A stretch of DNA of 64,000 nt, taken from assembly GCF_032854445.1 (NCBI RefSeq), contig NC_088305.1:23655400-23719399 (forward strand). The letters are read 5' to 3'. Every line of letters begins with the position of its first letter. Within the stretch, counting starts at the first letter, position 1. A program made the translations under genes and the position numbers. The notes beneath the pieces were generated by a model that was not told the origin of the DNA, did not search any database, and saw nothing but the letters and a program-made list of their open reading frames with translations. Positions 1,670 to 55,205 of the stretch are shown in pieces. Source of the DNA: Liolophura sinensis (Eukaryota; Mollusca; Polyplacophora; Chitonida; Chitonidae).

Positions 1670-4600
1670 CTGATGGCAGGAAAATCAAACCACAATAATA
1701 ATTAAGCATCTTTATAGAATGAAAAGTTCATACAAAAAAGCAAGGTGAAAAAATCATTTTAATCAGGCCAAACAGGTAAGAGACATATTAACCCCTTCCT
1801 GTGATTAATGACAGGTAAGAGGCATAATTCTTTCTGTGTTTAAAGAGATAAGGGCAATAACTCTTTCTCTGCTTAGTAAGAGGGAAGGGGCATAACTCTT
1901 TCTCTGTTCACTGAGCATACTCCTCAACAGCACATGTGCCGCTCTCTAACTTTCGCTTTACATCACTGCCCCCTATAGCAAATTTTGGATAGAAATCTTG
2001 AACAACACCAATGTCAGGAGGTCAACGCTAAGGCAGGAAGTGATGTCAGAAAACACAAACAATCGGTGTCAACCTTCGTCTCCAATAGTACTTTATACAT
2101 ATGGATTCTCCTTACCTCGAGTGTGTGCAACATGATCCTAACCAAAATCTAAAACAATTTTACTGAGGGATGTTGATTAAACAGTTCCATAGGGGAGGAC
2201 AAAAGTGATGATGCTAAGACTAAACAAGTCTACAGGCTCCAAACTTATCTACTGATGGCAGTGACGTAAATCCAAAGGTAGAGAGCAGCACATGACCTGT
2301 TGAGGCGTATGTTTAATAAGAGGTCAGGGGTGTAACTCTTTCTCTGTGTAATGACCGGCCCGGATAGCACAGTTGGTAGAGCGTCCGCTTCGGGACCAGT
2401 AGATCCAGGATCAATCCTTGATCGAGTCACACCTAACACTTTAAAAGAGGAAGTTGTAACTTCCTCGCTTGGCGTTCAGCATGAAGGGGATAGTGCAACG
2501 ACTGGTTGACCCGTATCAGTATAATGGCTCGGGCGGGGTGGCTTACTAGCCTTCGGTAAGGCGTCTAAGTGAAGCAGCACTAAATAAAAGAGCGGTGGAA
2601 ATCCGTCCTGCAACAAGGAGGCACATTACACATGCATGCACCCTAAGGATTCCTTCATCGTCATATGACTGAAAAATTGTTAAGTATGACGTTAAACCCC
2701 AAGCACTCACTCACTCACTCTGTGTAATGAGAAGTAAGGGGCATAACTCTTTGTTCAATGAGCATTAGCAATATCAGAAATAGGGAAAGCTGGATTTGAG
2801 GCCTTATGGGGGCCATAGAGCAACAAATGCTGACGAACACAACTTTAGTCAACATTTGTTCTTACAATCATACATGTACTTTACTTTAAGTCTGTGGCTA
2901 AGCAGATCAATGTCGGCATCAGACAGTCTTAGAGAGCCACACTTTACCTGACATCTGTCATCACAGCCATACTTACCTTAAAGTTTGTGGCAGGCCAGAA
3001 CGATGTGGGCATCAGACAGTCTTAGAGAGCCACACTTTACCTGACATCTGTCATCACAGCCATACTTACCTTAAAGTTTGTGGCAGGCCAGAACGATGTG
3101 GGCATCAGACAGAATCGGCCGGGCCCTCCCTCATTGGTCACCAGGAAATGGGCGATATGCAGGTCTCCAACCAGACAGAAACCTACATCTAGCTCGGGGG
3201 GCACTGCCCGAAAAACAACACAGCACAACACAGGGGTACTAGATGTAGCACAGAAGGGGGCATCAGTGCATCCAAGACCATGTAAAATTATGTGTGATTT
3301 AATGGTAATCATAAAAGGTTAATCACAGGGCATGACAACTATGTTAAAAACTCCACAAAATTACAAGGATTTACATGAACGTTCATATTTCGTCATATTT
3401 CTCACAACTTCTTTCAAAAAATACATTGTCTAAGGTGTAGTGCCATAAGGCAATGTGATTTAAGTTAAGGTAACTTTTAAGGAAAGTTATAAAAAAATCA
3501 GTAAGAAAATGGGTCCAGTGCTTTGTCTTTTTTCAGCTGTAGAGAATGCTGTTATTGCTACACGTGAACAGTGAATACTGTAGCTGATCAACTCACGTGA
3601 CAAGACAGGTGGGGGTCTTCTTCCCTGAAGCTGGATCAACATGGGTCTTGAAGACTGAGTCTGTACCTTTATAACATCATCATAGTCCCCCAAGGAGTCG
3701 GGGTTAAACCTGATGGTGTAGTGACAGCTCATGCCCGGGGCAACCAATCCCTGTTCTCCAGGGAACTGTCCTGTAAGGAGGAAACTGGGCTTAATACAGC
3801 AGAAAAAATGAGCTTAATACACGAGATGGGGGATTAGCCTAATACATCTGGAATGCTGAGTTTAATACAGAGGGACAGCTGAGCATAATACTGAGGGAAA
3901 GCTGAGCTGATAGAAAATTGAATACAATGTTGAAAAACTGAGCTTAGGTAATAGGTAAAATTCAGTCCAATACAGAGTACAGAGATGATATTTACTTTAA
4001 TACTGAGAGCTTAATACAGAAGGGAAATTGAGCTTAATGCTAATGGGGAAAATGAGCTTAACACTGAGCCAAAGATGAGCTCAAGAAAGAGGGAATGCTG
4101 AAGGTAAACTGAGCTTAACACTAAGGGAAAATTGGACTTATTGAAAAGGAAGAATTAGGTTTAATACCAAGGGAAAATTGAACATGGTGTTGAAAAATGA
4201 GCTTAATAGGTAAAATTGAGTTCAATACAGAGAGGATATTTACCTCAATACTGAGGGGAAAATTGATACTAAGAGAAAATTAAGCTTAGCACTGAGGGAA
4301 CACTGAGCTTAATACAGAAGGGAAACTGAGCTTAATGCGAATAGGAAAATGAGCTTAATACGAATGGGAAAATGAGACTTATGCGACTGGGAAAATGAGC
4401 TTAATGCGACTGGGAAAATGAGCTTAATACTGAGGAGAAAATGGTCTTAATACAGAGGAGAAAATGGTCTTAATAAAGAGGGAATGCTGAAAGTAAATTG
4501 AGTTTAATACTAAGGCAAGAATGAGCTTATCGCAGAGAGAAAATTAAGTTAACATGGAGGGGAAAATTAAAGTTAATATGGAGGGGAAAATTGAAGTTAA

Positions 4601-13885: not shown

Positions 13886-14050
13886 ATGTCTGTTGGCTAT
13901 AGTATTCTGGTTGTTGCGGTGACTGGATTTTTGGCATGGGCACTCTTCAAGCTATTGCCAGCATTGTTATCTCTAAAAGCCAGGAACAAGGCTATGGCCA
14001 AATTCCCATTCAGAAGTCCAGTTCACTGGTTGATGGGAAATATACCACAG
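13886..14050 (+). CDS. CYP4: CYP4 exon 1
   Basis: Residues 1-55: start [20 protein letters not shown], the hydrophobic signal-anchor, then the linker to HWLMGNIPQ. Ends in phase 0 at ACCACAG with donor GTAGGT. This junction is repeated many times in the following intron. Confidence 0.93.
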
Positions 14051-17000
14051 GTAGGTAAAAGATGTGCCACAGGTATTTTAAAGGTATGTGTACCACGGCA
14101 CGGCACAGTAAAAAATAATTAGTGTACCACAGGTTAAAGACAGAGATGAATAACCTAGTACTACGATATACATGTACGTGTGCCACAGGTGGTAAATGTG
14201 TACCAAAGTTAGGATCTGCTTATGTGTACCACAGGTAGATTAAAGACACATGCCACAGGTGGTAAATGTGTACTGTAGCTAGCGTAATCATGTGTACCAC
14301 AGGTAGGTTAGAGATGTGCCACGGGTGGTAAATGTGTACCAAAGTTACGGTAAGCTTATGTGTACCACAGGTAGAATAAAGACACGCGTTACAGAAGGTA
14401 ATTGTATACTAAAGCTAACGTAAGTATATGTGTACCACAGGAAGATTAAAGACACGTGCCACAGGTGGTCAGTGTGTACCAAAACTAGGGTAAGCATATG
14501 TGTACCACAGGTAAATTGAAGACTCATGTGCCACAGGCTTGCACTATGTGCCACAAGTTGGTAATATGTGCCACAGGTTGGTAATATGTACCAAAGGTGG
14601 GTTTAATTGTAAAGATACCTATACAGTGTACCACAGTTAGGTGTATATCTATTTCATATATGGCAATAGTTGGTAATATGTGCCACAGGTTGGTAATATG
14701 TACCAAAGGTGGGTTTAATTGTAAAGATACCTATACAGTGTATCACAGTTTGGTGTATATCTATTTCATATAGGGCCAACATATGTAAATACAGTAGATT
14801 TGTGAACATGTACATTCCTCAGGTACATGCATTACACGACATTTATTTCAAATGTACTTTAGTATGGCATTGAACAGCAGTCAGAGGAGTAATCAGGTAC
14901 CGGTATATGAATGCTGTACTGAAGAATGTCTCTATCTATATCGCTGAGCGAACCTCCATAGCTGAGGTGGTTAGCTTGTCAGCTTGGCACAATGACCTGG
15001 GAGCCTCTCACCAATGTGGTCACTTCCACTTGGTCTGTTAGTGGGAGTGTCTGTAAGCAACCTGCAGTTAGTCATGAGTTTCCCATGGACTACATGTATT
15101 TCCATGAAATATTCTTGAGTACAGCAAATCAAATATCAAACAGATAAATAAATATATCCCCTAGGCACGGTCTGCCGAAGGCTACCTGAAGTTCTGCACC
15201 GAGATGATGTTAGAACATGGCCGTGCCTTCTCCATGTGGTTCAGTACTACCCCTCTCCTGTACCTCTGTCACCCTGACACAATCAGAGAGGGAATCAAGA
15301 ACACCGAGGCCAAACCCAGATCTGGCCTGCTCAAAGGCTACGCCATGGTGGAACCCTGGATAGGTTAGTCAGTAGGATTAGGTGAACAGATGGATGGGCA
15401 ATATGTGGTGCTGTGGTTTATCGTAACTTGGCAAGTTTTACGAATATGAGGGTTGAAAGTTTTTGAGTTTTTGTCATTTCTAGTCAGTTGGTCAGTTAGT
15501 CAAAGGATAGTCTAGGAATTTGAGGAGTTGATGAGTGGATGAGTTTGGTTAGCTAGTTAATTTGAAAGGGTAAAAAATAAGTCACGTGTTAAAATGACAT
15601 TTAGAGTGGGTCTGTTTAGTAAGATTTATAAATGTGTCTAATAAATTGGTTATCTCATCTTAGAAAAATAACCTTCTGGAGAAAGAATACTGAAATAAAA
15701 TATGTGTTCATTGAAATAATTTTGAATTATTTCATAGGTGAAGGCCTTCTGTTAGCCTCGGGAGAGAAGTGGGAACGAAACCGAAAGTTGTTGACTCCAG
15801 CTTTTCATTTTGATATTCTCCGTCCCTACATCAAAGTTTATCAGGAAGCAGCGGAAAAGTGCTCAGTATGTAACCAATGAACCCACTGTAAATCCAACCA
15901 CCATTAGAAATCAGTAAAAAGGTGTCTTGCCTTTGAATCCCTAGAACACACAAGGTGGGGGATCAAACCCAGCATTGAACTCGGAATTTGCTGATTCCTT
16001 TTCTCACTATTTGTGAGGTCATGGTGACAATAAGCATCAAAATTTCATGTAACAGTAAACATCATGTGTCTTACACCAATCTGATATGTCAGAAGTGGGA
16101 AAGATGCCAGGGGCCTCCGTTGCTCAGTTGGTTAGCGTGCTAGCGCAGCGTAATGATCCAAGAGTATCTCACCAATGTGGTCACTGTGAGTTCAAGTCCA
16201 GCTCACACTGGCTTCCTCTCCGGCCATATGTGGGAAGGTCTGCCAGCAACCTGCGAATGGTCATTGTTTTTTCCTTGGGCTCTGCCCAGTTTCCACTCAC
16301 CATAATGCTGGCTGCCGCCATATAAGGGAAATATTCTTGAGTACAGCATAAAACACCAATCAAATAAATAAATAAATAAATACAGTAAGATACAGTGAAG
16401 TGGTTGCATCGTTTAGCCTGGGCACTCTGGTTTCCTCCATCAATACATCCATAAAACTAACTGCTTTCGTGTAAGTGGAAAATTCTTCAATATGGTATTA
16501 AACTACAATCAGATCAAATCATAAAGATCAATATGTATTGTCCTTTAATCTCCAGCAAAATAAATAAATAAAAAATTTCTTTTCAGAATAATTTTAAAAA
16601 GCTGATCGCAAAATCAGACAGTGACAGTGTGGAAGTTTCAGAACCTCTTGGTTTATGTACTCTGGACATCATGCTGACGTGTGCTCTGTCATTCCAAACA
16701 GACCTGCAGGAAAATGGGTGGGTACTAAAAGCTTCAGACAGGTCTGTTAGGATGTAAGAATAATAAGATTTATACATACTGAGGTATATTTAGTGATAAG
16801 GGCGAATTCGCAATAACTGCAACACCACACAAAAGGTTCATAGGTATATTAGGTGTGATTGTCAGCTTGGCGGACGTGTATTGATTGGGGCTAATGATGA
16901 GCACAAATTTGACCAGTCACTCCATGTTACAGATGATCAACCATCTGACTGACAGAGAGCTCTGCCCGCTTTCTGCCAACCTTAATTCTGGCCGCCGTCA

Positions 17001-20000
17001 TATAAGTGAAATATTCTTGAGTACTGTATAAAGCACAAGTCCGATAAATAAAAAATTTTAGTTGCAGTTTGCTCAAATTTATACAGTTGTAGTTTCTTTA
17101 AAGCACAAGACAATACCTGGCTAAGGCGAAAGCTTTATTATTTTAATGACATTTCACCGAATAACATGTAGAACAAAATGTCAATACTGCACAGTTTTCT
17201 TGTGTGAATCGAGGCAGGCATCTGGAGAATTTTATCCAATCAAACATGTTGCTATCAGATTATGCAGCCTGAGCAGTATCGTAGCCTTTACCTGCTCACT
17301 CCATGAAGTGACATATGATAACACAGAACTACTGCAGAAGACATCATTTTGAGATCGTGTAAAACAATTTAGTTACGTATAGCCAAGGGGCTACTTCACA
17401 CAGTGTAGTGGGACAGGTTTGTATCATTTACGGGCCACCACAGACATAAAATTAGTTGATTTACAAATCGTGTAATATTGAATAACGTTATCACAAATTA
17501 TGTCAGTCAATAGCATACCATTTTGGCCCAAACCACATTCATCTCCCCAGGTAGACCTAGGCCTACTCAGATATGCTGTGCAAATTATACAAATACAGTT
17601 TTGTCATTCATTTTATCATTTAGTCAGCAGTTTCTAAATAACAAATATTAGAGTCAGTGAAAAATTCGTTAGAGATGCACAAGGTTGATGGGAATGAGAA
17701 GACAGCATCTCTCCAGACAATGCTTGAAATTGATTAAATCTTATGAAATAATTTTTTTTCTCTAAATTTACAAGAATTGAAATATTTAACTTTTGCTCCT
17801 TTATCTTTCTTGGATAGAAGGGATGATTTTTCTGTTTTCTTTTATAAAATACAGTAAAATTATTGAAACGTTGTATTCAAGCCACGGGGCTTCTGACATC
17901 TGTGATAACTTTGTCAGCACTGCTCTCTAAACTGAAGCATCAAATTCAGCGATAGTGAAATGCCTAGATCAACCTCAGTGGTGCTTACATTTATTTCCAT
18001 TTCTTTTGGAACTCTGCATATCTAGTTGTACAACAGTTCTATTGTAATTTCATAAATATTAATAAGGGTCAAAATCACCAGCACATCCCCTCCGTACGCT
18101 TTGACCTGACCGGCTCCGATAACACAGTTGGTAGAGCATCTGGTTCGGAAGCGGTAGATCCAGGGTCAATCCTGGGTCGAGTCACACCTAAGACTTTAAA
18201 AGAGGAAGTTTCAGCTTGCTCACTTGGTGTTTAGCATGAAGGGATATTGCAACGACTGGTTGACCCGTATCAGTATAATGGCTCAGACATGCCTTCGGTA
18301 AGGCGTCTCAATGAAGCAGCACTAGATAAAAGAGCGGTGGAAATTCATACTGCAACAAGGAGAAACATTACATGCACTCTAAGGATTCCTTCGTCATCAT
18401 ATGACTGAAAAATTGACACTCACTCACTCGGACCTGAAGCAGGAATACCCCAGCCATGCATGTTTAGGCTACCTAAACTGTAAATGCAGCCTTACTATAT
18501 CAACAGTTCAAACAGTGGAAGAATTATCCTTCCAGTATGTCCAATTTCATAGAAAGCTATTTATCACTTGTACCTTCATCATCTAAGTCCACAACTTTTA
18601 ACTGCCATAGGTCACTGCTTTGAATATAACACGGACAATAACTTCAGAGAGCTAGAGTAAACGTGACGTCACCTTACTGTGGTTAATGGAAATGCACTGA
18701 AGCTGTGTGAAGAGGGTGTTAAGTGTGCGCTCAAAACCCACAGATGACTGGCTCAAATACCCAGCTGGTAAACCAATCAAGGTCACACTTGACCTTAACT
18801 CACAATAACCATGGAAATAGCAAAATGTATTTATTATTTAAACATCAGTGAAATCCCAATATTTCCTTCACTGATAAAAATGATATCTTCACTATTTAGA
18901 TATCACTTTTGTTATTACATTTTGCTATTACACTGCTGGAGACCTTGAACCTTCGTGGACCGCATCACAAGGCTGTGCACTTCTGTTCATGTGCTTAATT
19001 TACACAAATACCTACATTGCATTAGCATTAAGCACCTTTGTAGAATGTATAATTACTTAAAGACAGCATTTAAAACTGTAAAAAGTTTTTGTGAGCACGG
19101 ACATGAACAAAATTGCAGCGCGTATGAATAGAATCAGAAATACAAAGAAGATGGCACATTGTTTATTTCTTTCACGGATGCAACAGATAAACGGATAGGC
19201 ATTTATATACATGTAGAGAAAAGGTCAGGATATAAATAATAAATACAGTATTGTACTGTGAAGGTTGAATACCATAAATATTGTTCTCATGAAAGGTAGA
19301 AATGATAACCACTCGACGCTTCGCGGCTCCTGGGTCATTACTTCCACCTCTCACTCAAACAATATTTATGGTATTCAACCTTCACTGTGCACTATCCTCT
19401 ATGAGCTACACAGATACATGTATATGTGAATATACTGTGCTCAGTCATTTTCCTTTTTAGAGGGCCGGGGCACACTGATACTCTATGAATGGTATATTAA
19501 TCAAAAAAAAGCATACACCTGCAAAGTTTTTGTTTATTTTCTATTACAGATATTAATTTTACACACCAAAAAACGTGTATGTCATGTAGATGAGATACAT
19601 GAAAATGAAGTCATCTCTGCTAGTCAGTCACACATTAACTCACCAGATTCTCTTGTCAGTCTTAGTTGTCTCTACTATTCAGTTATTTATTAACTCACCA
19701 CACTCTCTTGTTAATCTTAGTCGTCTCTACTAACTAGTCAGTGATATATTAACTCACCAGACGCTCTTGTCAATCATAGTCATCTCTAGTAGACTCTCAC
19801 ATATTAACTCACCAGACTGACACATGAATGACACATGTTTTGAAAATCAGTTATTAATAGTGCTTACTGTTTTCAGGCATCCTTATGAAAAGGCTGTTGG
19901 ACGACTGATGGAACTTGTCAGAGAACGTTCAGTGTAAGTACACATACCAGCGTATTTGTGTACGCTCAGTGTAAAGTACACATACCAGCGTGTTTGTGTA

Positions 20001-23000
20001 CGCTCAATGTAAAGTACACATACCAGCGTATTTGTGTACGCTCAGTGTAAAGTACACATACCAGCGTACTTGTGTACGCTCAGTGTAAAGTACACATATC
20101 AGGGTATTTGTGTATGCTAAGTGTAAAGCACACATACCAGCATATTTGTGTACGCTCAGTGTAAAGTACACATACCAGCATATTTGTGTGTGCTCAGTGT
20201 AAAGTATACATACCAGCGTATTTGTGTAGGCTCAGTGTAAAATACACATACCAGCGTACTTGTGTACGCTCAGTGTAAAGTACATATACCAGCGTATCTG
20301 TGCACGCTCAGTGTAAAGTACACATACCAGTGTCTTTGTGTACGCTCTGTGTAAAGTATACATGCCAGCATATTTGTGCCAAAGTAGATACTCAGCCATT
20401 TGTTGCCTGTTCATATCTCAAAGTGAACCCCATTAACATCATTAACACAACAAGCAATCCTAACAAGCCATTCTAGGAAAAAAGGCAAGATAAAATACCA
20501 TTATTTATTTATAGTCATGACAAAGCTCTTGTCAACACAGTATCTCCAAAACTACATGGCATAATTCAAACAGAAATTTCATTTATGGGAACTTCGATGG
20601 GAAGGATTTTTGTTTTAATTTGATCCAATCAATATCAGTTTCTATAAAAACTTGTCTTATAGTCACAGCATTTTGTTTAGATAAGAAAAAAAAATGTTGA
20701 AAGTGTTTCACGAACCTGTTATTTCAAATTTCATATAGTACATCAGTTCTGTTAACCTAAAACATCAGTGAGAATTAACCCCATCTGTCTGCAATATATG
20801 TTAATATTTCGGCATTTATTTTGCCAGCCTCGGGATATATTGTGAAGCATAATTTAATTGTGCTGCCTCTATACAGGCACCCTTTGTACCTTGTGAACTT
20901 TATCTGGTGGCGATCTAAACTTGGAAAAGAGTTTCAAGACTTGTGTGATTACACTCACCAAATCTCAGGCAACGTCATCAAGGCCAGGCAAGAGAGTCTG
21001 GTAAGTTAATATGTGGTTGACTAGATTCTGGTGGGTAGAGATGACTAAGATTTACAAGAGAGTCTTTTGAGTTCTCACGACCGTGACTGACCAGGGAGTC
21101 TACTCTGAGTAAATATGAGAGTGACTGACGAGCAAATAAACTGTATGTGAGTTTCTGGTGAGTAGAGATGACCAAGGTTGACAAGAAGGTCTGTATGACT
21201 GAGTGACACATAAATCTGGTGATTGACAAGATAGTCTGGTGAGTGAATATGACTGTGATGGACAAGACAATGGTGAGTAGCCTATGTGATGTATTTTACT
21301 GTGAGTGAGAAGTCAGTCTGGAGAGTTAATATTTATGTATGTATTTGATTGGTGTTTTACGCCGTTCTCAAAAATATTTCACTTATACGACGGCAGCCAG
21401 CATTATGGTGGGAGGAAACTGGACAGAACCCGGGAGAAACCCACGACCATTCAGAGGTTTCTGGCAGATCTTCCCACGTAGAGGAGAGTTAATGTGACTG
21501 ACAGACAGGACAATGGTGAGCATACATTTGATTCTGAGTAAGAGATCAGTCTGGTGAGTAAATATGACTGTGACGCACAGACAAGACAGTGGTGAGTAGC
21601 CTATGTGTATATATTTGACTGTGAGTGAGAAGTCAGTCTGGAGAGTTAATATGACTGTGACTGACAAGTCAATGGTAAGTATACATTTGACTCTGAGTGA
21701 GAGATCAGTCTGGTGAGTAAATATGACTGTGATGTACAGACAAGACATTGGTGAATATATATTTGACTGTGGCTGAGATGTCAGTCTGGTGAGTAAATAT
21801 GACTGTACAGACAAGACAGTGGTGAGTATATATTTGACCTTGAGTGAGGAGTCAGTGAAGTGAGTGAGTGCTAGCTACCAGTGACACTGTACATATAGTC
21901 CAGGGTCACCGTACCAGAATAGACAGGCTCCTCAGGTGTGACTGAGTTAGTGCTAGCTGCCAGTGACACTGTACATATAGTCCAGGGTCACCGTACCAGA
22001 ATAGATGGGCTCCTCAGGTGTGACTGAGTTAGTACTAGCTGCCAGTGACACTGTACATATAGTCCAGGGTCACCGTACCAGAATAGATGGGCTCCTCAGG
22101 TGTGACTGAGTTAGTGCTAGCTGCCAGTGACACTGTACATATAGTCCAGGGTCACCGTACCAGAATAGATGGGCTCCTCAGGTGTGACTGAGTTAGTACT
22201 AGCTACCAATGACACTGTACATATAGTCCAGGGTCACCATATCAGAATAGACAGGCTCCTCAGGTTTGACTGAGTTAGTACTAGTTACGAGTGACACTGT
22301 ACATATAGTCCAGGGTCACCGTACCAGAATAGACAGGCTCCTCAGGTGTGACTGAGTTAGTGCTAGCTACCAGTGACACTGTACATATAGTCCAGGGTCA
22401 CCATATCAGAATAGACAGGCTCCTCAGGTGTGACTGAGTTAGTACTAGCTACCAGTGACACTGTACATATAGTCCAGGGTCACCATATCAGAATAGATGG
22501 GCTCATCAGGTGTGACTGAGTTAGTGCTAGCTACCAGTGACACTGTACATATAGTCCAGGGTCACCATATCAGAATAGACAGGCTCCTCAGGTGTGACTG
22601 AGTTAGTACTAGCTACCAATGACACTGTACATATAGTCCAGGGTCACCATACCAGAATAGATGGGCTCCTCAGGTGTGACTGAGTTAGTACTAGCTACCA
22701 ATGACACTGTACATATAGTCCAGGGTCACCATATCAGAATAGACAGGCTCCTCAGGTGTGACTGAGTTAGTACTAGCTACCAGTGACACTGTACATATAG
22801 TCCAGGGTCACCATACCAGAATAGATGGGCTCCTCAGGTGTGACTGAGTTAGTGCTAGCTACCAGTGACACTGTACATATAGTCCAGGGTCACCGTACCA
22901 GAATAGATGGGCTCCTCAGGTGTGAATGAGTTAGTGCTAGCTACCAGTGACACTGTACATATAGTCCGGGGTCACCATATCAGAATAGACAGGCTCCTCA

Positions 23001-26000
23001 GGTGTGACTGAGTTAGTACTAGCTACCAATGACACTGTACATATAGTCCAGGGTCACCATATCAGAATAGACAGGCTCATCAGGTGTGACTGAGTTAGTA
23101 CTAGCTACCAGTGACACTGTACATATAGTCCAGGTCACCGTACCAGAATAGACAGGCTCCTCAGGTGTGACTGAGTTAGTGCTAGCTACCAGTGACACTG
23201 TACATATAGTCCAGGGTCACCGTACCAGAATAGATGGGCTCCTCAGGTGTGACTGAGTTAGTACTAGCTACCAGTGACACTGTACATATAGTCCAGGTCA
23301 CCGTACCAGAATAGACAGGCTCCTCAGGTGTGACTGAGTTAGTGCTAGCTACCAGTGACACTGTACATATAGTCCAGGGTCACCATACCAGAATAGACAG
23401 GCTCCTCAGGTGTGACTGAGTTAGTAATAGCTACCAGTGACACTGTACATATAGTCCAGGTCACCGTACCAGAATAGACAGGCTCCTCAGGTGTGACTGA
23501 GTTAGTGCTAGCTACCAGTGACACTGTACATATAGTCCAGGGTCACCATATCAGAATAGACAGGCTCCTCAGGTGTGACTGAGTTAGTACTAGCTACCAA
23601 TGACACTGTACATATAGTCCAGGGTCACCATACCAGAATAGACAGGCTCCTCAGGTGTGACTGAGTTAGTACTAGCTACCAGTGACACTGTACATATAGT
23701 CCAGGTCACCGTACCAGAATAGACAGGCTCCTCAGGTGTGACTGAGTTAGTACTAGCTACCAGTGACACTGTACATATAGTCCAGGTCACCGTACCAGAA
23801 TAGACAGGCTCCTCAGGTGTGACTGAGTTAGTGCTAGCTACCAGTGACACTGTACATATAGTCCAGGGTCACCGTACCAGAATAGATGGGCTCCTCAGGT
23901 GTGACTGAGTTAGTACTAGCTACCAATGACACTGTACATATTGTCCAGGGTCACCATACCAGAATAGACAGGCTCCTCAGGTGTGACTGAGTTAGTACTA
24001 GCTACCAGTGACACTGTACATATAGTCCAGGTCACCGTACCAGAATAGACAGGCTCCTCAGGTGTGACTGAGTTAGTGCTAGCTACCAGTGACACTGTAC
24101 ATATAGTCCAGGGTCACCATATCAGAATAGACAGGCTCCTCAGGTGTGACTGAGTTAGTACTAGCTACCAGTGACACTGTACATATAGTCCAGGGTCACC
24201 ATATCAGAATAGATGGGCTCATCAGGTGTGACTGAGTTAGTACTAGCTACCAGTGACACTGTACATATAGTCCAGGGTCACCATATCAGAATAGACAGGC
24301 TCATCAGGTGTGAATGAGTTAGTACTAGCTACCAGTGACACTGTACATATAGTCCAGGGTCACCATATCAGAATAGACAGGCTCCTCAGGTGTGACTGAG
24401 TTAGTACTAGCTACCAGTGACACTGTACATATAGTCCAGGGTCACCATATCAGAATAGATGGGCTCATCAGGTGTGACTGAGTTAGTACTAGCTACCAGT
24501 GACACTGTACATATAGTCCAGGGTCACCATATCAGAATAGACAGGCTCATCAGGTGTGACTGAGTTAGTACTAGCTACCAGTGACACTGTACATATAGTC
24601 CAGGGTCACCATATCCGAATAGACAGGCTCATCAGGTGTGACTGAGTTAGTACTAGCTACCAGTGACACTGTACATATAGTCCAGGGTCACCATACCAGA
24701 ATAGATGGGCTCCTCAGGTGTGACTGAGTTAGTGCTAGCTACCAGTGACACTGTACATATAGTCCAGGGTCACCGTACCAGAATAGACAGGCTCCTCAGG
24801 TGTGACTGAGTTAGTGCTAGCTACCAGTGACACTGTACATATAGTCCGGGGTCACCATATCAGAATAGACAGGCTCCTCAGGTGAGACTGAGTTAGTACT
24901 AGCTACCAGTGACACTGTAGATATAGTCCGGGGTCACCATATCAGAATAGACAGGCTCCTTAGGTGTGACTGAGTTAGTACTAGCTACCAGTGACACTGT
25001 ACATATAGTCCGGGGTCACCATATCAGAATAGACAGGCTCCTCAGGTGTGACTGAGTTAGTACTAGCTACCAGTGACACTGTACATATAGTCCGGGGTCA
25101 CCATATCAGAATAGACAGGCTCCTTAGGTGTGACTGAGTTAGTGCTAGCTACCAGTGACACTGTACATATAGTCCAGGGTCACCGTACCAGAATAGATGG
25201 GCTCCTCAGGTGTGACTGAGTTAGTACTAGCTACCAGTGACACTGTACATATAGTCCGGGGTCACCATATCAGAATAGACAGGCTCCTCAGGTGTGACTG
25301 AGTTAGTGCCAGCTACCAGTGACACTGTACATATAGTCCAGGGTCACCGTACCAGAATAGACAGGCTCCTCAGGTGTGACTGAGTTAGTACTAGCTACCA
25401 GTGACACTGTACATATAGTCCAGGGTCACTGTACCAGAATAGACAGGCTCCTCAGGTGTGACTGAGTTAGTACTAGCTACCAGTGACACTGTACATATAG
25501 TCCAGGGTCACCATATCAGAATAGACAGGCTCCTTAGGTGTGACTGAGTTAGTGCTAGCTGCCAGTGACACTGTACATATAGTCCAGGGTCACCGTACCA
25601 GAATAAACAGGCTCCTCAGGTGTGACTGAGTTAGTACTAGCTACCAGTGACACTGTACATATAGTCCAGGGTCACCATATCAGAATAGACAGGCTCCTTA
25701 GGTGTGACTGAGTTAGTGCTAGCTACCAGTGACACTGTACATATAGTCCAGGTCACCGTACCAGAATAGATGGGCTCCTCAGGTGTGAATGAGTTAGTGC
25801 TAGCTACCAGTGACACTGTACATATAGTCCGGGGTCACCATATCAGAATAGACAGGCTTCTCAGGTGTGACTGAGTTAGTGCTAGCTACCAATGACACTG
25901 TACATATAGTCCAGGGTCACCGTGCCAGAATAGATGGGCTCCTCAGCTGTGACAGGCATCCAGTGGAAATCTGTAAGCCTATGTGTAAGAACATGTCTGT

Positions 26001-29000
26001 AGTGTTAATTTGAAATCTTCAAGAACGAGAACAAGATTGTATCAGTTGTCAGTATCTTTGTATATTTATTTGTTTGACTGGTGTTTTTCGCTGTACTCAA
26101 AAGTATCTCTCTTATATGGTGGCAGCCAGCATTATAGTGGGATGAAACCAGGCAGAACCATCCGCAGGTTGCTGTAAACCTTCCCACATACGGCCAGAGA
26201 GGAAGCCAGCATGAGCTGGACTTGAACTCACAGTGACCACTTTGGTGGGAGGCTCCTGGTCATTGTTCCATAAGGTGCGCTACCTCCCTAAGCCACGGAA
26301 GTCCTCCATTGCCTCTCCTCAACAAAGTTCTACCTATAGTTTTCTTTCGTGGCCAACAGAATTTGAGTGAAATCTTTTAACTGTTATGTTATATGAATAA
26401 CCGAATCATTGACAAAGCTCATTTAAATTCATGAACATCTTGCTTTCTCAAACCAAAATTTTGTTACATTTTGATATTTGTTGCGCAGAAAGACTTGCCT
26501 GAAGACGCAAAGAAGAGTCGTCACCTGGATTTCCTAGACATTCTTTTGACTGCTAGAGATGAAAATGGCACTGGTTTGACTTTTAAAGAAATCCGTGATG
26601 AAGTTGACACGTTTCTGTTTGAAGGTTTGGCTGCAGTGAATAAACATATATGCATTTTTAATAGAATTAAAGTGAACTGTGAGAACTTATAATACGTGTT
26701 GGAGGGGCCTCTGTGGCTGAGGGGGTTAACATGCCAGTGCGGCAAAATGCCCCAGAATCCTCTCGCCAATGCAGTGGCTGTGAGTTCAAGTTCAGCTCAT
26801 TCTGGCTTTCTTCCCGGCCATACAAGTGGGAGGTCTTCGGCACCCTGGGATGATTGTGGGTTTGCCCAGGCTCCAACCGGTTTCCCCCCACCGTAATGCT
26901 GGCTGCCACATCCAGAGTGAAGGGATGTTGACGTTAAAAACATAAAAAAAAAGACTTTAAAAATGACGTACTTGTTCACATACAAGTGTACCTCTGACAC
27001 GGAGGTCACAGAGCGATCTTTAATAGACTTAAGTCCAAATTTCAAATCTCTTTTAAATTCTTATGTAACAAGGTCGAAATATTGCATTACAACGTAAATT
27101 GTGGCTAAGTTAGTGTGAAACAAATTTCAGCTAAAATAATGGAAAGGAACATGCCAAGTTTAATGATTGCAATGTTGACGTAAGTGGAGATCGCTTTGTT
27201 ACCTCGGGGCCTGTCTGTTTGGCTTGCCATAACAACACACCTTGACCATTTAATATGTTGTTTATGTCAGAGAGTTTATTGGGTTTGTGTAAATGCCTCT
27301 TTGTCTGACACATGTACCATTGTCACATGTTATAAAATTATTTGTATGATATAGAACTTGGATTGGTGGCGTAATATTTAGAGTCGGGAGACCCGGGGAT
27401 CAAACATGGATTGGCTTATATCAGAGGCCTTTTAAAAACTGGTACTTCCTGCTGCCTTGCTTGGCGCTCAGCACTGAGAGGTTAGAGCAAGGAAACATGA
27501 CTGGTTGGCTCAGTGTCAGTATAATGTGACTGGGTGGGGTGTCATGTCTGGTGTCTTCGGCATGGTACTTCAGTGATGGCAGCACTTTGGCGGCATGGAC
27601 TCGCCCTGCCAAAAGAAGACACGATATGTGTACACACTAATAACTCCTCGTCGTCATCATATGACTGAGAAGTTGTTCAGTATGATGTTAAATCCCAAGC
27701 ATGCATGCATACATTCTTGTGAAATAGGGTGGCAAGAAGCACTTGTCAGTAATGATATTACAGATGAGATAGATCAGGTGGCTCTAACTATTGTGCACTC
27801 AGTGACATCAGCACTGGAATCCTGTGATATAGTGATACTGAATGAAAATATGGTGACATCGTTTAAAACTGTGGGTTGTTCGTAAGGCATCATTGAGTTG
27901 AACATTTAGGATTATTTTCAAATAAATTTCAATCAGTTTTAATATCTGGTTTCACTTTCCGTTGCGTAATTTAATATTTTAAAATCTCATCTGAGATCGA
28001 ACTGTTGCATCCGTATCAGTATTTGGGCTCGGTTGAGACGTCTGCCCGACCACAGACAATCGATGTTGATAAAACTTTGAGGATCACTCAGTGTCATGAT
28101 CATCTGTCTGTATTTGCATGCACTTTATGACAGCACTGAGCCAGTCTCTTGGATGCAGGAAACCACAATAGTTTGCCAGGTTGCTTTAAAACCTTTGACT
28201 CCTGCCGATAAACCTGAGAGAGATTGAGTAGCCTCCTTCAGTGCCCGAACTGTTGCTTCACTAAGTCCTAGTCCTCATTGGTGAAAGGCCAAATAAGGGT
28301 TGGCAGAAGCCAGTAGGTAGTGAGGACTGCTTGGTATGTTGTATCTGTGGTCAGATGACAAGGATGAAATAAAGAGACGAACTGAAACTATTGTAGAGCT
28401 CATATTTTAGGTCATGATACAACTAAGGCAGCTCTCAGCTGGTGCCTGTACTGCCTGGGCAAATACCCGGAGGAACAGCGCAAAGTCAGGGAGGAAGTCA
28501 TCCGGGTGTTTGCTGACAAACAGGAGTTAGAGTGGTGAGTATATGGTAACAAAGTGTAACAGAGATGTGTTAGGTTGGTGAGTTAGTGGTAATACATTGT
28601 AACAAAAATGTTAGGATGGTGAGTCATTTGTAATGCCGGGATGTGCTAGGATGGTGAGTGTATGCTAATACAGTGTATCAGAAATGTGTAAGAATGGTGA
28701 GTCAGTGGTAATACAGTATAACAGGGATGTGTTAGGATGGTGAGTCAGTGGTAACACAGTGTAACAGGGATGTGTTAGGATGGTGAGTCAGTGGTAATGT
28801 AGCAGGAATGTGTAAGGATGTAACAGAGATGTTAGGATGGCGAGGCCATGGTAATGCGGGGATGTGCTGGGATGGTGAGTGTATGGTAATACAGTGTAAC
28901 AGGGATGTGTTAGGATGGTGAGTCAGTGGTAGTACAGTGTAACTGAGATGTGTTAGGATGGTGAGTCAGTGGTAATGTAGCAGGAATGTGTAAGGATGTA

Positions 29001-32000
29001 ACAGAGATGTTAGGATAGTGAGGCCATGGTAATGCGGGGATGTGCTGGGATGGTGAGTGTATGGTAATACAGTGTAACAGGGATGTGTTGGGATGGTGAG
29101 TCAGTGGTAGTACAGTGTAACAGATGTTAGGATGGTGAGTCAGTGGTAATACAGGGATGTGTTAGAGTAGTGAGTGCATGGTAATACTGTGTAAAAGAGG
29201 TGTTTTGTGATGATGACTGAATGGTAATATTGAAATTTGGACAGTGTAACAGAGATGTTAGGATGGTGAGTCAATGTGGCATTAGGGTGGTGAGTGTGTG
29301 GTAATGGTGTGTAACAGCCGTGTGTTACAATGATGACTGAATGGTAATATTGAAATTTGGATGTGTTAGTATGGTGAGCGAATGGTTATACAGTTACAGG
29401 GATGTATTAGGATGGTGAGTCAGTGGTAATACAGGGTAACAAGGATGTGTTAGGATGGTGAGTGAATGGTAACTGTGTAACAGGGATTTGTTATGGTGAC
29501 GAGTCATTGGTAATACAATAGCAGGAATGTATTGTTTTCTGGCCTTCCATCAGTATGGCCGGTAACTTAATAAAGGTCAGTGGTTTTAATACAGCGGATA
29601 TTTCAGTTCCTCCACCAGTAACAATGCCACCATTGTTTATATGAAAAATAAATACTTAACACTTCTTCATGAGACATTCATAGCACAATTATAGTGTAGC
29701 CAAGAGGGTATGAGTTGTTCTGGAGATGTAATTCTCAGATCTTAAATAGAGGTGCGTATGTATAGGTATATTTTGAATGAGTGCTGATGTCTTTGTTCAT
29801 GTCTTTGTTGATATTTGTACTTCTATACAGTTTCCTATGTATGTATATTTTAAGGGAGGACATACAACAGCTTCAGTACACCAGTCTCTTCTTGAAGGAG
29901 GTGCTGAGGATGTACCCCTCTGCACCACAGATTTCTAGGGTAACAACACGCCCGGTTACCATTGACGGGATTGAGCTCCCAGAGGGCTCAACTATAGAGG
30001 TCCACATATATGCGTTGCACCATAACCCGCTAATCTGGAAAGACCCAGAGGTAGAAGATTTCTTGTTTTGCTTATGCTGTTTATTTACTTGTTTAGTCAT
30101 GTCTTTAGTTCCCTGCCAGCACTGACTTTGAATTTACCCTCGTTGGTCAGTTATGGGTTCATCACATAACATCAAAGTAAAACCATAGAACATTGTCCTA
30201 GTGATGAGCTCTTGGTTTGCTAGTGGTAAGATGAGGATGTGCTAGTGGTGAACTAGTGGTGAGCCTTTAGTGGGCTTGTTGATGTAGAGGTTTGAATTTA
30301 GTTGTGAGCCGGTGGTGTCCTAGTGGTGAGTAGAGGTGTGGTGATGTGCCTGTGGGCTAGTGCGTAGTGTGATAGGTGCTGGACCCCTGGTGTGCTTGTG
30401 AGCTATTGGTGTGCTAGTAATGATCTAGATGTGTGCTGCTTGTGACCTGTAGGTGTGCTAGTGATGAGCTAGATGTGTGCTAATGGTGAGCTGTTGGTGT
30501 GGTAGTGGTGAGCTGGAGGTGTGCTGTTGGTGAGTTAGTAGTGTGCCAGAGGAGAGCTGTTGGTTTGCAAGTTGTGTGCTCCTGGTGGGTTGTTGGTGGG
30601 CCAGTAGTGTGCTAGGTTTGTGCTGTTGCTGTGCTAGTTGTGTGCTGTTGGTGAGCTAGTGGTCAGATAGTGAGGAAGTGTTGGTGTGCTAATGGTGCGC
30701 TGTTGGTGTGCTGTTGGTGAACCAGTGGTATGCTGTTAGAGTGCTGGTGGTGTGCTGTTGGTGTGCTTAATGGTATCCAAGCATGGTGGTGTTGGTGAAC
30801 TGAAGGTGTGATAGTGGCGAACTGCTAGTGTGCTGTTGGTAAGCTTGTGGTGTGTTGTTGGTGAGCTAGTGTCATGCTGTAGGTGTGTTAGTGACATGTT
30901 GTTGGTATGCTAGTGGCATGTTGTTGGTATGTTTTTGGTGTGCTAGTATGCTGTCAGTGTGCTCGTGGTATGCTTTTGGTGTGCTAGTGGTATGCTCTGG
31001 GAGTGCTAGTGGTATGCTCTGGGTGTTTTAGTGGAATGCTGTTGGTTTGTTAGTGGTATGCTGTTGGTGTACTAGTGGTATGCTGTAGTTGTCCTAATGG
31101 TGTGCTGCTTGTGAGGCAGGGGTGTGCTGTTGGTGAGCTAGTGGTGTGCTGTTGTCGAGCAAATAGTGTCCTTTTGGCAGACGAGTGGTGTGCTGTTGGT
31201 GAGGTAGTGATGTGCTGTTGGTGAGCTAATGGGGTACATTTAGTGGGCTAGTGGTATGCTGTTGGTGTGCTAGTTGATTGCCACTGTGATCCTTTCAAGA
31301 GCAGATCTCATGTCACATTCTACATTTTCATTTTAGTTTAACATGGGATGACAAAATGAAAACCCTTGACTTATTAGCCAAGTGTTTGTCAATAAAAGTG
31401 AGCTATTTCAAGTTCTCATTGTGTCATTTTAACTTATTATATACATGATGTGTGAACCTCGCACGTGTTTTCTTTTCTATTGTTCAGACCTTCAAACCTG
31501 CAAGGTTCAGCCTGGAGAACTTTGCCAAGCATGACCCATATTCCTTCATTCCTTTCTCTGCTGGACCAAGGTAAATGTTTAGTATTGTTCTCCATGTATA
31601 TCCACACTATTCTGTGTTGACACCATGTATCTCCACACTGTGCTGTGTTGACACAATGTTTGTCCACACTATGCTGTCTTCACACCGTGTATCGCCACAC
31701 TATGCTGTGCTGACACCATGTATCTCCACACTATGTTGTGCTGACACCGTGTATCTCTACACTATGCTGTGTTCACACCATGTATCTCCACACTATGCTG
31801 TGCTGACACCATGTATCTCCACACTGTTGTGCTAACACCATGTATCTCCACACTATGCTGTGCTGACACCGTTTATCTCCACTCTATGCTGTGCTGACAC
31901 CGTGTATCTCCACACTGTGCTGTGCCGACACCGTGTATCTCCACACTATGCTGTGCTGACACTGTGTATCTCCACACTATGCTGTGCTGACACTGTGTAT

Positions 32001-32837
32001 CTCAACACTATGCTGTGTTGACACCATGGATCTCCACACTGTGCTGTGTTGACACCATGTATCTCCACAGGGTGATGTGTTGTCGGACATTCCATCGTTG
32101 ATTCGGTGTACATATTGAATTCCGTGAATTTCTGAATTCTTGTATTGATCTCCCCAGTGTGCTTTGTTGACTGACACCATGTATCTCTACAGTGTGCTGT
32201 GTTGATATCATGTGTGGCCACCTTGTGGAGTGTTCACAGCATGTATCTCCACACTGCTGTGTTCACACCATGTATCTCCACACTGCTGTGTTCACACCAT
32301 ATATGTAAACACTCTGCTCTGTTGACACCATGTGTATCACCACTGTGCTGTGCTGTGTTAACATATAAGCAAAAAGCTGTGCTGTGTAAATGTGAACTGA
32401 AAACATCAGGACATGAAATGCATGTAAGTATATAAAAATAATTTTCATACTCATTGCAGGAACTGCATCGGACAAGTATTTGCCCTGAATGAAATCAAGA
32501 CAGTACTGGCATGTTTGGTGAAGTGGTAAGGCTCTCTGCTTCGTCCTTGACCTCACTTACATGTATTATTGCATCAGCATTAGATCCGGCCTGCTACAAG
32601 AAGGCACCATTGTTATGTCATTGGAATTTAAAGCACTGTTGAATGCTAAGCAAACAAATATAATCCATGGTTAGATGAAAGATCCAGAAGGACAAGTATG
32701 TGAAACATGATTCTGCTCGACACCTAATATGTACCATAAATGTTTATACCAACAGATCCTTCTTGCCCCCAAGTCCATGCACGCTGAAAGGAGGAAAAAA
32801 GCATAAAAATGATGGTCTTTAATATTTTTTTGTGATT

Positions 32838-37944: not shown

Positions 37945-40900
37945 TGTGCATTTCTTTCTTTATTGGTGTTTTACGCCGCACTCAATGCTGTTTCATTTAT
38001 CCGTCAGCATTACGGTGGGAGGAAATAAGCGGTGTATGAAATAGAACTAACTCTTAACACACTTTACCTAATGGGAAGAACATGTCGTTTGGTTAAACAG
38101 TGCTTAACCGGATAACACAGCTCCTTCATATATACACAGCCGATGATTACCGACGTTTACCGAACCTCGCCGCCGTGACGTTTCTAAGCATACCATGGAC
38201 ACATTACAATCCTAGAAACAAACGTTACGCGCGCACAGTCGATATCATGTAGAGTTTGGCTCTGGAAAGACGTCTATGGAGACAATTTTCTGGTGTATTA
38301 ATAATAATTTCAAGTAAACTTGCACGTAAGAGAAACTCCTAGCAGAGGTACTCAATCATACTTCAATTCTGGAGTGGGAATGTGTTTTGTGCCGAGCAAT
38401 GCCGACATGACGCGGCGTGACTGTGACGTCACAAACACAGCGTCACTACTTGTGCAGATCATTCTAGCGTTAAGTGATGCACTACACACACTGAGGCGAC
38501 TGATCACATGTGACAGGCGAGGTGTTTGATCTGGTTTTGTCAACGGTAGCCAGAATCACACCACCTGCTGACATTTTCACTGAAATTATCATGATGGCAT
38601 AGGACACGTTGATGATCAGTAAGGACAACAAACAATGAAAGATACCTTTTCAGAAAAAAAAATCTAGGAAATATGAGTTATCTACCTTTGTTGTCTTGTA
38701 CTGTTTATAGAAAGACAAAAATACTGGAAAATATGTTACGGTTTTGTGCCACTGATTTATTTATTTATCTCATCCACATGTTGTTTGTCTATATAGGTGT
38801 GTTTTGTCTACATACTTATGTTATAAACTAATGTATTCCTCTCGTACGCTGTTAGACAAGAGTGAGAAGTTGACACTTCTAGTCCGGCTATCATTATGTA
38901 GTCCAAATCACATAAACTTACAGAGGTTATGCACCGGAGATTTTTTGGCAAAACAATCCATATTCTCCAATTAAAAAAAAGTTTCTCTATTTACCATGCA
39001 AGGATAGTTAAAGTTTTTGCCTATTATTAATATCAGACTCGTATACCTGTACTATTTATAGCGTTAAATTGAGTTAAAAATTTGAATAACTTGTAATGGG
39101 AATCGTTTCAAAAACTTTACGAACTTGATTACCAGTATTGAACGGTAACACCTGTATAGGCGACTGCCCTATCAATGAATATCTACGGAAAATCGATGAC
39201 CTAAGAATAGGAAAAACGTTCAAAACCTTTATGGTGACATAAGCTAAGAAGAGTTGATGTAAAACACGTTCTACTGAGTCACTTCAGCTGAAAGGAACAC
39301 ACAAGATCAGATCGTCTTTTATGTTTGTCGGATTTTGGTCACAAGTCTCTTTCGACAGAATTTCAGTTATATCACAACAGTATCTTCCCGTATTAGGAGA
39401 TACTAGGCACGACACGGATTTTACCAAGTGTAACTGTACTGAGAGCTGACAGACAAGGACATGGCGTATCCTTTCATTGTGAGAACGCATCAGGGATCCA
39501 TCAACATTCTACGCCAACACTAAAGTCTTTAAAGTCACATGAGATTGACGTAGACTCTTTGCCAATTTGCAACATTATTCAAACAACCCTCACCCTCACC
39601 CCCAATCCAAAACCCACAAACACCACTATAACTTTAAGATTGAGTTCCTTTGTGTTTGGAAAACACTTATTAGATTTTAAATCCTCCATGTATGTATAGG
39701 CCTACAGCTTACAGGCGAATGAAACCATTTTTTTCTACATGATTGTCCATAGTGTTGGATGTTTTGGGATGACATAAAACAGTTTCTATGATTTACACCA
39801 ATTCTATATGTGCTACTTGTAGCTTTACAACTTCCTATCTTTTGATGTATCATTTTATTATATTTAATTCAAATATCTTTAGTCACGCAATCTTTTATTT
39901 TTCATGGTCTGACGTCAGTATAATTATAGACCTACATGTGCAATTAAATGAATCAATGAATGTTATAACTTACAACGCCACATCGACAGCAGGACAGCCC
40001 TATTATGACCAGAACTATTCAAATGGAAGAGGAGATATTTACAGTACAGTCTGTGTTGATATTTCTCAAATATACGATTGCATATCCATGTTGATCAAGA
40101 AGGAATTCACTTACTAGTATAGCGTGTCTTCATAATCGCATGAACACGCCAGTACCGCGTATGCGTTTTGCATTCAGGCAAGCACTTGACTGGTTAGGGT
40201 ACATTTGTAAATTTGCATTGAAACGTGTCACTGTTATACTTACACCATACACTTGGTGTTTATTAATTGGGTCGGTGTTTCACGCTCTACTCAAGAATAT
40301 TTCACTTACACAATAGGTGGGAGAAAATCGCTGGCAGAAACAAGGGGAAACTCACGACCATCCGCAGGTTGCTGCCACATTCCCATGTATGTAGACCGGA
40401 TAGGGCTTGAGTGTTCAATCCATGACTAAATTTTGTCCACATGAATCATTTCTCTCATCAAATGTGCAAGTGTTATAAACTGCTTATCATATCAAAGATA
40501 TTAAATAATAATGAGCATGCCTTATGTATACATAGAGTGTCCCCTTCATTCAATTAAATGAATATATGGTAAGACTGCAACAAGGCAACACTATTGTTAC
40601 GTATGGTTGGGTTTTCGACTCGTAAACTTTACAGTTTTTCACTGAAAAAGGTCTGTGCATTTATTTATTTCAATGGTGTTTTATCCCTCACTCAATAATG
40701 TTTCACTTATACGTCAGTATTACGGTGGGAGGAAATAAGCCGTTTACAAAATAGAACTAACTCTTAACACACTTTACCTAATGTGAACATGTCGTTTGGT
40801 TAAACAGTGCTTAATCTGATAACACATCTCCTTCATATCTGCACAGTCGATGATTACCGACATTTACCGAAGGTCGCTGCCGTGACGTTGCTAAGCATGC

Positions 40901-52900: not shown

Positions 52901-53024
52901 TAGAATAGTTAAAGTGATTGCCTATTAATAATTATCACACTCGAATACCTGTACTATTTATAGCGTTAAAATAATTTTAATGTTTGAAAAACACGTGCAC
53001 AGGCTGATATTTTTTGGCAGGTCA
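37945..53024. repeat. tandem segmental duplication array (4 long + 1 partial copy)
   Basis: Copies begin at the shared landmark TGTGCATTT at 37945, 40654, 44310, 47918 and 51841; lengths are 2.7, 3.7, 3.6 and 3.9 kb, and the last is cut at about 53024. Each starts with a SINE tail fragment, then GAACTAACTCTTAACACACTTT, a CRE-containing segment, an AT-rich middle, CACCCT runs, and a second reverse SINE fragment near its end (40255, 43915, 47515, 51450). Copy 2 has an extra internal ~370-bp duplication (40820-41550). Copies 3 and 4 are almost identical over about 1 kb (46400-47380 vs 50300-51300). I find no credible protein; the array lies between the two CYP4 terminal exons. Confidence 0.93.
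49436..49688 (-). mobile_element. recent full-length SINE insertion with target-site duplication
   Basis: T-run, GATTGGTGTTTTAAGCCGTA, intact body, B box, A box and head end GAGCCACGGAGGCCCC. Flanked by ATGTGAATTGAT (49424-49435 and 49689-49700). The paralogous sites at about 42525 and 45768 are empty. Confidence 0.97.
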
Positions 53025-54357: not shown

Positions 54358-55096
54358 TAAGCAGTATACTGAAGCCAGCAAGGGAAGTACAGAGGTGTTG
54401 ACGGTAAGTTTATGGAACAAGACAGGGCTGTAATAATACACATAATCACAGCCCTATATAGATATATCTCTGTGTAAATCCCTCTTCTATACAACGCCCT
54501 GGGTTACAATTCAGTCAACAACTGGGAATGTCTGCACAGACAATCAATGATGTAGGCTAGCCTTGTAAACATCATAAACACAGTCAAGTCATAAAAATAC
54601 ATTGGCCATTTACGGTTAACTGTTGAAAACACTGACTGTTGAGATTATGACTACACTACATCTGCGTATTTTTTATGATTATGTGCGAATTAATTACCAC
54701 GCCGGAAACTAAACCGTTTGTGAATATTTTTTGTTTTATCCCGAAGTAACAAACAAGGTTGATGTCGAACAACGGGGCATTTGTTGTAAGTTAGATATGT
54801 TTATGTGTGAATGTGAGTGTGTGTCACGGATCAGATCTTACGCCCATCATACGTGGATCCTACGCCCATCATACGCGGATGGTACACCCCTCTTGCCTGT
54901 ATGGTTGGTGTTAAAATCATATGATGCCATGGGAGTTATAATCAACTTACATTTTAGCCTTAGAGGGTCTCACACCCATGCAAGTTCATACCGTGGCGAA
55001 GTCGTACGTAAGATTCGCGTTATTCGTGTGTCATCAAAATATATTAATTACCAACTAGATGTATTATTACGACTTTATGTTTAATTTTTGTTACAG
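54358..55096. other. upstream of the second CYP4 terminal exon; no exon 11 counterpart seen
   Basis: Checked for the NCIG-containing exon and others; none found. Contains a short CTACGCCCATCATACG duplication at 54839-54881. Confidence 0.55.
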
Positions 55097-55205
55097 GTTT
55101 GAGTTTGGCTATGTCCCAGAACACGAGAATAACGTCATTCTTCAGCCATTAGGGACATTAAAATCAAAAAACGGCATTAAAGTGAAAATAACCTCACGGA
55201 CATAA
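55097..55205 (+). CDS. CYP4: second CYP4 terminal exon (alternative last exon or gene remnant)
   Basis: 109 nt with acceptor TTTTTGTTACAG and stop TAA at 55203-55205. It encodes FEFGYVPEHENNVILQPLGT and a tail ending VKITSRT. Length, phase and splice acceptor match CYP4 exon 12 (33924-34032), and 22 of 35 residues are identical, the differences clustering in residues 5-12 and at the very end. It is open, with conservative replacements, so selection has probably acted on it. It could be spliced from exon 11 (32460-32525) as an alternative 3' end, or be what remains of a tandem gene copy. Confidence 0.85.

Follow-up and report, generated by a model that had tools for sequence, protein, structure and literature searches.

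Why should the minisatellites in several introns of one gene begin with the end of the preceding exon? The question is raised by a 64,000-nucleotide stretch of the genome of the chiton Liolophura sinensis (NC_088305.1, positions 23,655,400 to 23,719,399; 'the window', to which all coordinates below refer), containing a CYP4-like cytochrome P450 gene in which four introns open with tandem arrays built on the exon end and its 5' splice site (donor). A first-pass annotation of the window saw in these arrays either a local duplication mechanism acting at splice donors or selection for the binding of U1. In exons sampled across the genome, we find that acceptors are crossed by such arrays as often as donors, and we put at about three in four the probability that the arrays are ordinary short tandem duplications, those that span a junction surviving as the exon-proximal copy keeps the exon and the splice site.

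Donor-crossing arrays in the CYP4-like gene

The 505-residue protein obtained by joining the exons of the gene (Table 1) and translating them matches the Pfam p450 model with an E-value of 3.3e-109, its best relative of solved structure being CYP4B1 (E 1.9e-104). For every donor of the gene, a query covering positions -20 to +25 around the junction was aligned to the rest of its own intron, with the reversed query as a control. Donors 1, 5, 6 and 8 gave 10, 11, 12 and 21 matches, respectively (0, 0, 3 and 5 with the reversed query), and the remaining seven donors gave 0-1 matches each in their own introns. Under the rule that was applied identically to the genome sample described below, 4 of the 11 donors and none of the 11 acceptors of the gene are crossed. 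The homology extends upstream of the donor for 10, 14 and 11 bp at donors 1, 6 and 8 by an ungapped measure, which fails at donor 5, where alignment gives ~9 bp of exon homology.

The exon component was also followed with probes consisting of the last 8 exon bases, matched with at most one mismatch across all introns of the gene. The exon-1 probe was found 20 times in its own intron, five times in intron 4 and once each in introns 7 and 8; that of exon 5 six times in its own intron and twice in intron 7; that of exon 6 three times in its own intron and once each in introns 1, 4 and 7. The exon-8 probe showed no specificity (three occurrences in its own intron and three each in introns 6 and 7). 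When six donor bases were added to the probes and up to two mismatches allowed, the own-intron counts were 10, 0, 1 and 13 for exons 1, 5, 6 and 8, and every other intron of the gene had none; the lack of matches for exon 5 reflects the extra A of its units, which an ungapped comparison cannot accommodate. The junction alignments and the probes uphold the first-pass annotation in that the first unit in introns 1, 5, 6 and 8 is the real exon end with its donor and, since unit sequences and periods differ between introns, in that the same kind of event occurred separately several times in one gene.

Table 1. Genes and arrays of the window treated in the text; a slash stands at the splice junction
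Feature	Coordinates	Strand	Description
CYP4-like cytochrome P450 gene	13886..34031	+	12 exons, stop codon at end, 505 amino acids
CYP4-like gene, exons 1-4	13886-14050, 15165-15363, 15738-15865, 16587-16717	+	
CYP4-like gene, exons 5-8	19877-19933, 20877-21000, 26489-26624, 28411-28534	+	
CYP4-like gene, exons 9-12	29855-30050, 31488-31570, 32460-32525, 33924-34031	+	
Intron-1 array	14041..14776	+	donor-crossing; units with TACCACAG/GT or TGCCACAG/GT; ~10 exon bases copied
Intron-5 array	19925..20378	+	donor-crossing; 38-bp units, 12 copies counting the exon end; later units with GTAAAGT, not GTAAGT
Intron-6 array	20987..21860	+	donor-crossing; degenerate units with GTCTGGTGAGT; interrupted by a dispersed repeat at ~21330-21480
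Intron-8 array	28524..29517	+	donor-crossing; ~43-bp units with TTAGGATGGTGAGT
DLEC1-like gene array	2877..3112	-	donor-crossing; 93-bp unit, 43 identical exon bases plus GTAAGT
Inverted copy of the exon-6-tail/donor array, in intron 4	19609..19818	-	four junction-like units in reverse complement

Donors and acceptors in a genome sample

An intron array that begins at a donor needs no donor-specific mechanism, and the acceptor side offers the control. From the genome searched (609,464,459 bases in 632 contigs) we collected 157 exons of P450, myosin and kinesin genes with their flanks, picked irrespective of arrays. The P450 exons were 37 of 85 matches, all outside the window and of at least 40% identity, taken roughly best E-value first with several later ones of 40-49% omitted; the myosin exons were the first 40 of 81 matches; and the kinesin exons were 80 of 132 in list order, long open frames and matches with many stops having been removed by hand. 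Splice sites were called from the open frame and a consensus score, which 10 donors and 13 acceptors failed; their removal left 147 donors and 144 acceptors, and neighbouring exons of one gene share some stretches, so that the sample exons are not fully independent.

Arrays crossed the junction at 8 of the 147 donors and 9 of the 144 acceptors (Fisher p 0.81), which lends no support to a mechanism peculiar to splice donors. Strong crossings, a label set after the list was seen and denoting at least five copies or copies that are near-identical, numbered five on each side (donors L055, L063, L107, L121 and L142; acceptors L015, L019, L068, L071 and L099; p 1.0). The others were single-match donors (L054, L071 and L153), single-match acceptors (L029, L033 and L069) and L172, with two matches. 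At the L071 acceptor, for instance, a myosin intron ends in repeats of CGTTTCTTGTCTGCTGTGTTTGTAG/GTTTGAG, of which 13 crossing copies lie within the 400 bp examined, and kinesin and myosin exons matched by family models run straight into arrays. When queries were exchanged between exons, 12 of 3000 swaps scored on the donor side and 16 of 3000 on the acceptor side. The sample arrays have a median period of 35 bp, and the units in the window measure ~38 to 93 bp. An initial pass over 77 exons at a lower threshold had given donor matches in 7 and acceptor matches in 12, with no donor match among the 37 P450 exons. Two loci, L018 and L022, ~10 kb apart on contig C13, have identical called donor sequences and matching arrays and are probably recent paralogs.

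Where the arrays start

The density of array starts was compared between the exon edge (the last 60 exon bases, -60..0) and two intron zones, with one start criterion for all zones. At the exon edge it was 5.8e-4 per bp for donors and 3.5e-4 for acceptors, in the adjacent intron (+15..+150) 6.6e-4 and 6.7e-4, and deeper in the intron (+150..+330) 1.8e-4 and 3.2e-4. The edge and the adjacent intron thus held 8 and 24 starts, respectively, a ratio of 0.70 (confidence interval, CI, 0.27-1.61), with no spike at the junction; by this stricter start criterion, L015 and L019 begin inside the intron and 8 edge starts remain. If arrays were placed uniformly, the density in the adjacent intron and the array periods would predict 7.05 crossings, compared with 8 counted by the same criterion (P 0.41) and 10 when the strong crossings of the junction test are taken (P 0.17). 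Beyond 100 bp, tandem arrays cover 11-21% of the flanks; this coverage drops toward the exon in the 77 exons of the initial pass, and likewise across all usable exons. The claim that arrays begin preferentially at 5' splice sites is therefore not borne out by the sampled starts, and since acceptors are hit equally and the exon edge shows no excess of starts over the neighbouring 150 bp of intron, no special link to the 5' splice site is needed.

We propose that these minisatellites formed from ordinary short tandem duplications with periods of ~20-95 bp, perhaps through replication slippage or unequal exchange. Where one breakpoint falls in the last or first few dozen exon bases and the other in the intron, the splice site would be copied and the exon-proximal copy would retain the whole exon, leaving the protein unchanged. 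The exon-proximal site would then be the one spliced, and because the proteins are conserved it is presumably the site normally used; the remaining copies would behave as near-neutral intron sequence, free to expand and diverge and at times undergoing inversion or interruption.

Several observations weigh against so simple an account. The single-match crossings, three donors and three acceptors, exceed the ~0.6 and ~0.8 expected by chance from the swaps. All 17 crossings exceed the 7.05 expected plus 1.36 by chance (P 0.006), a comparison across unequal detection rules in which the expectation comes from the stricter one. In the CYP4-like gene, the fraction of crossed donors is higher than that of strong donors in the sample (4 of 11 versus 5 of 147, p 0.0014), a post hoc figure for a gene picked for its arrays. 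The zone at +15..+150 holds 2.7-fold more starts per bp than that at +150..+330 (p 0.006, both sides pooled, the effect being clearer at donors); from the donor exon edge to +150 the excess over the deeper zone is 3.6-fold (CI 1.2-14, p 0.017), on the acceptor side, from the exon edge to 150 bp, 1.8-fold (p 0.22), and for the exon edge against deep intron 1.9-fold, with wide intervals (CI 0.67-5.2). The overlap with the exon is shorter than under uniform placement, averaging 0.37 of the period (Kolmogorov-Smirnov p 0.018, on 16 hand-entered values, several approximate), which harmful effects of long exon copies, or a decay of homology, would explain. Because the zone at +15..+150 is denser than that at +150..+330, array placement is not uniform along introns; the gradient may be due in part to lower visibility near the ends of the 450-bp kinesin flanks, which make the deep zone slightly less visible. 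Some clustering of array starts near exons remains.

Genome-wide motif counts may also be set against the account. Three copies of AGGTRAGT at 20-50-bp periods occur 1790 times (763+1027), against 929 (532+397) for the reversed motif; single copies are nearly equal (25,372+25,601 = 50,973 versus 24,161+23,733 = 47,894). We read this excess as arrays sampling real donors. Triples of the acceptor-like TTTYCAGG number 682 (389+293) against 144 (89+55) for its reversal, a comparison made with triples only. Each of the two splice-site motifs is thus commoner in arrays than its reversal, as would result from arrays sampling real junctions. Among the matches listed for the first 6.95 Mb of contig C1, 18 distinct triple-AGGTRAGT loci versus 6 reversed ones were counted by eye. 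Eighteen triple-donor loci were fetched and, two being filled by the array, 16 could be resolved; in 7 of these an open frame 54 or more codons long, read by eye, ends at the first array donor. The exons before such arrays match ankyrin, SNF2-type helicase, Fe-hydrogenase and 2-oxoglutarate dehydrogenase. Family or structure matches were obtained for L079, L085, L093 and L094, those of L086 and L083 lay below the Pfam cut-off, and the exon of L095 had no family or structure match. The SNF2-like exon of L085, whose matched entries are named helicase-like protein, presumably belongs to Mot1; L085 lies ~12 kb on C1 from L086, a donor-array locus with a HEAT-like exon.

The strongest competitor to ordinary tandem duplication is that donors are duplication hotspots, through R-loops or co-transcriptional breakage, at which arrays are preferentially seeded. 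The restriction of the arrays in the CYP4-like gene to donors, together with a fifth crossed donor nearby, the density of starts up to 150 bp past donors and the 18 loci against 6 on C1 would all fit this explanation, which we nonetheless consider unlikely: in the 157 exons, acceptors are crossed at the same rate as donors, a comparison of limited power, and starts show no spike at the junction over intron positions +15..+150. A narrower version, to which we give an equally small chance, is that duplication is seeded preferentially in the intron next to the exon and, for some genes, at the donor, and that a transcription- or splicing-linked process near 5' splice sites acts in a subset of genes hidden by the 157-exon average. 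It is suggested because the CYP4-like gene has four donor arrays and no acceptor array, because L085 and L086 lie only ~12 kb apart, and because starts near donors exceed those deeper in the intron.

Decoy donors

If the arrays were instead kept since their decoy donors bind U1 and so shield long introns from premature polyadenylation, the donors in the units should matter. Decoy strength was scored with a position matrix made for this analysis. A score no more than 1 bit from that of the real donor was reached by 2 of 8 decoys in intron 1, 5 of 10 in intron 6 and 15 of 18 in intron 8; the intron-5 figure, 8 of 10, is unreliable as the alignment gaps out the extra A. These counts qualify the statement in the first-pass annotation that units of introns 6 and 8 largely keep consensus donors; to call the extra A of intron 5 'inactivating' was too strong, the resulting GTAAAGT being a weakened donor that keeps its GT.

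Strong donors in many units of introns 6 and 8 are what protection by U1 would predict. Over ten donor arrays with 88 aligned units, however, donor cores show no more conservation than the remainder of the unit (mean identity 0.90, versus 0.90 for the exon part and 0.87 for the intron part); GT is kept in 79 of the 88 units, a figure favoured by the required alignment across the junction. Acceptor arrays are equally common, and the intron-5 units carry the weakened site. We accordingly give selection for U1 decoys very little credence.

For all 75 GT-bearing decoys of these arrays, use would truncate the protein or shift the frame: as read from coding sequence, the model-matched frame extends to the exon-proximal copy, from which every decoy is cut off by a stop or frameshift. 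For this analysis only, the donor of L142, placed one unit too far downstream, was corrected; the crossing counts, start densities and conservation figures above use the uncorrected place. An in-frame stop selected to precede the decoys was considered and rejected, since chance alone would make the first decoy of each array truncate or shift with P ~0.46. There is no sign of decoys being purged or maintained. If, as in mirages, inner units homogenise and boundary units are left out, the exon unit should stand apart. By ungapped pairwise differences, which indels inflate in some arrays, the exon unit is more distant from the other units than these are from one another at donors 5, 8, L063 and L142, and is not so at donors 1, 6, L055, L107 and L121.

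Probable origin at the locus

The exon 8 end falls at a codon position common to the paralog exons L005, L027 and L029, whose donors were called in this analysis; intron 8 is therefore older than its array. In a genome search that skips simple repeats and very common words, an intron-8 stretch (28500-29250) matched its own locus only, as did an intron-6 stretch except for one embedded dispersed repeat. That a dispersed satellite or transposon landed beside the exons, or that exon ends were recruited from pre-existing arrays, is accordingly most improbable, and for introns 6 and 8 we reject it. Introns in general commonly hold arrays and a dispersed repeat does sit in the intron-6 array, but the units of both introns are private to the locus, the exon ends encode family-matched protein and that of exon 8 is common to paralogs.

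The embedded element, at ~21330-21480, is a short repeat with copies of ~90% identity on many chromosomes.

Other repeats in the window

The fifth donor-crossing array of the window, in a minus-strand DLEC1-like gene, is younger than the CYP4 arrays. The crossed exon ends in FWPATNFK, followed by the 93-bp unit, and has no Pfam match; other exons of the gene match Ig_Dlec1_1 (E 1e-13).

The inverted array in intron 4 of the CYP4-like gene aligns to the exon 6 junction array with a score of 110, the highest among 200 letter shuffles being 50. It is complementary to the direct array in intron 6 (20987-21330), the two lying on either side of exons 5 and 6; judged by this complementarity, they could pair in the pre-mRNA and favour circular RNA or the skipping of exons 5-6. 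Further along intron 6, at 21861-25953, an 82-bp unit is repeated 50 times with 94% matches and is apparently unrelated to the splice junction. Minisatellites in intron 10 (31592-32069) and intron 9 (30393-31274) begin ~20 and ~340 bp past the donor, respectively; carrying no donor, they are arrays within the same gene that miss the junction.

Outside the gene, similar open reading frames recur every ~3.2-3.9 kb at ~40000-53000, for example minus-strand frames with KPDQTPRLSHVIS at 41434, 44666, 48274 and 52199, which suggests a tandem series of larger repeats. An isolated plus-strand fragment at ~55095-55193 shares 67% identity with the CYP4 protein close to its end (residues 470-502) and is possibly a gene remnant.

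Comparison with known systems

In the Rogers model, introns are gained by tandem duplication of AGGT-containing exon segments, as in the case of a potato RNA-dependent RNA polymerase (PMC4974935). The chiton arrays likewise involve tandem duplication across a splice junction, but no intron was created in this way at intron 8, which paralogs have at the same position. In humans, variable internal tandem repeats at exon-intron boundaries affect gene structure (PMC2812944); these lie within exons of recent paralogs and may yield new introns, whereas in the chiton pre-existing junctions were copied into the intron.

The donors of the human IFI6 (6-16) minisatellite were reportedly described by Turri, Cuin and Porter in 1995 in Nucleic Acids Research. 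This minisatellite supplies multiple splice donors, two downstream units of which are used to produce alternative mRNAs (PMC4526556; PMC2572611). Both systems have a donor-containing minisatellite; downstream donors are used in IFI6, whereas in the chiton the use of any of the 75 decoys is predicted to be disruptive.

The closest parallel is found in amphioxus, where a mirage in Adh3 is said to have been described in 2002. Mirages are minisatellite-like tandem duplications of exon-intron boundaries, present in the globins BflGb6 and BflGb9 (PMC3087553) and in troponin C and PGBD5 (PMC3902484). The globin study describes mirages at 5' as well as 3' boundaries and suggests that normal splicing is undisturbed (PMC3087553). 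In amphioxus and chiton alike, units span the exon edge and the splice site, and many copies keep the AG/GT; the unit lengths of 10-160 bp in amphioxus accommodate those of the window, and both kinds of boundary are hit in amphioxus and in the chiton sample, the CYP4-like gene being affected at donors only. Since the boundary-spanning units contain exon bases and a splice signal, with the authentic edge proximal to the exon, the chiton arrays are, as far as the DNA tells, mirages of the kind known from amphioxus. Undisturbed splicing and length or somatic instability are reported for the latter (PMC3087553; PMC3902484), and the chiton arrays are known from the DNA of one haplotype.

Among the matches listed in a search of the open-licence literature, we found no report of minisatellite splice-junction arrays in molluscs or chitons, and the parts of the cited papers that were consulted gave no earlier figure for a per-junction rate or a donor-acceptor comparison. 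If 3-6% of the splice junctions of this chiton truly carry their own tandem copies, as in the sample, they would offer a large natural set of competing near-identical splice sites beside an intact exon, in which the choice of the spliceosome among many equal donors or acceptors would be directly testable. Compared with their amphioxus counterparts, the chiton arrays differ in their mollusc host, in affecting several donors of a single gene and in having a measured rate per junction; these features and the donor-acceptor comparison appear to be new and would extend mirages beyond amphioxus.

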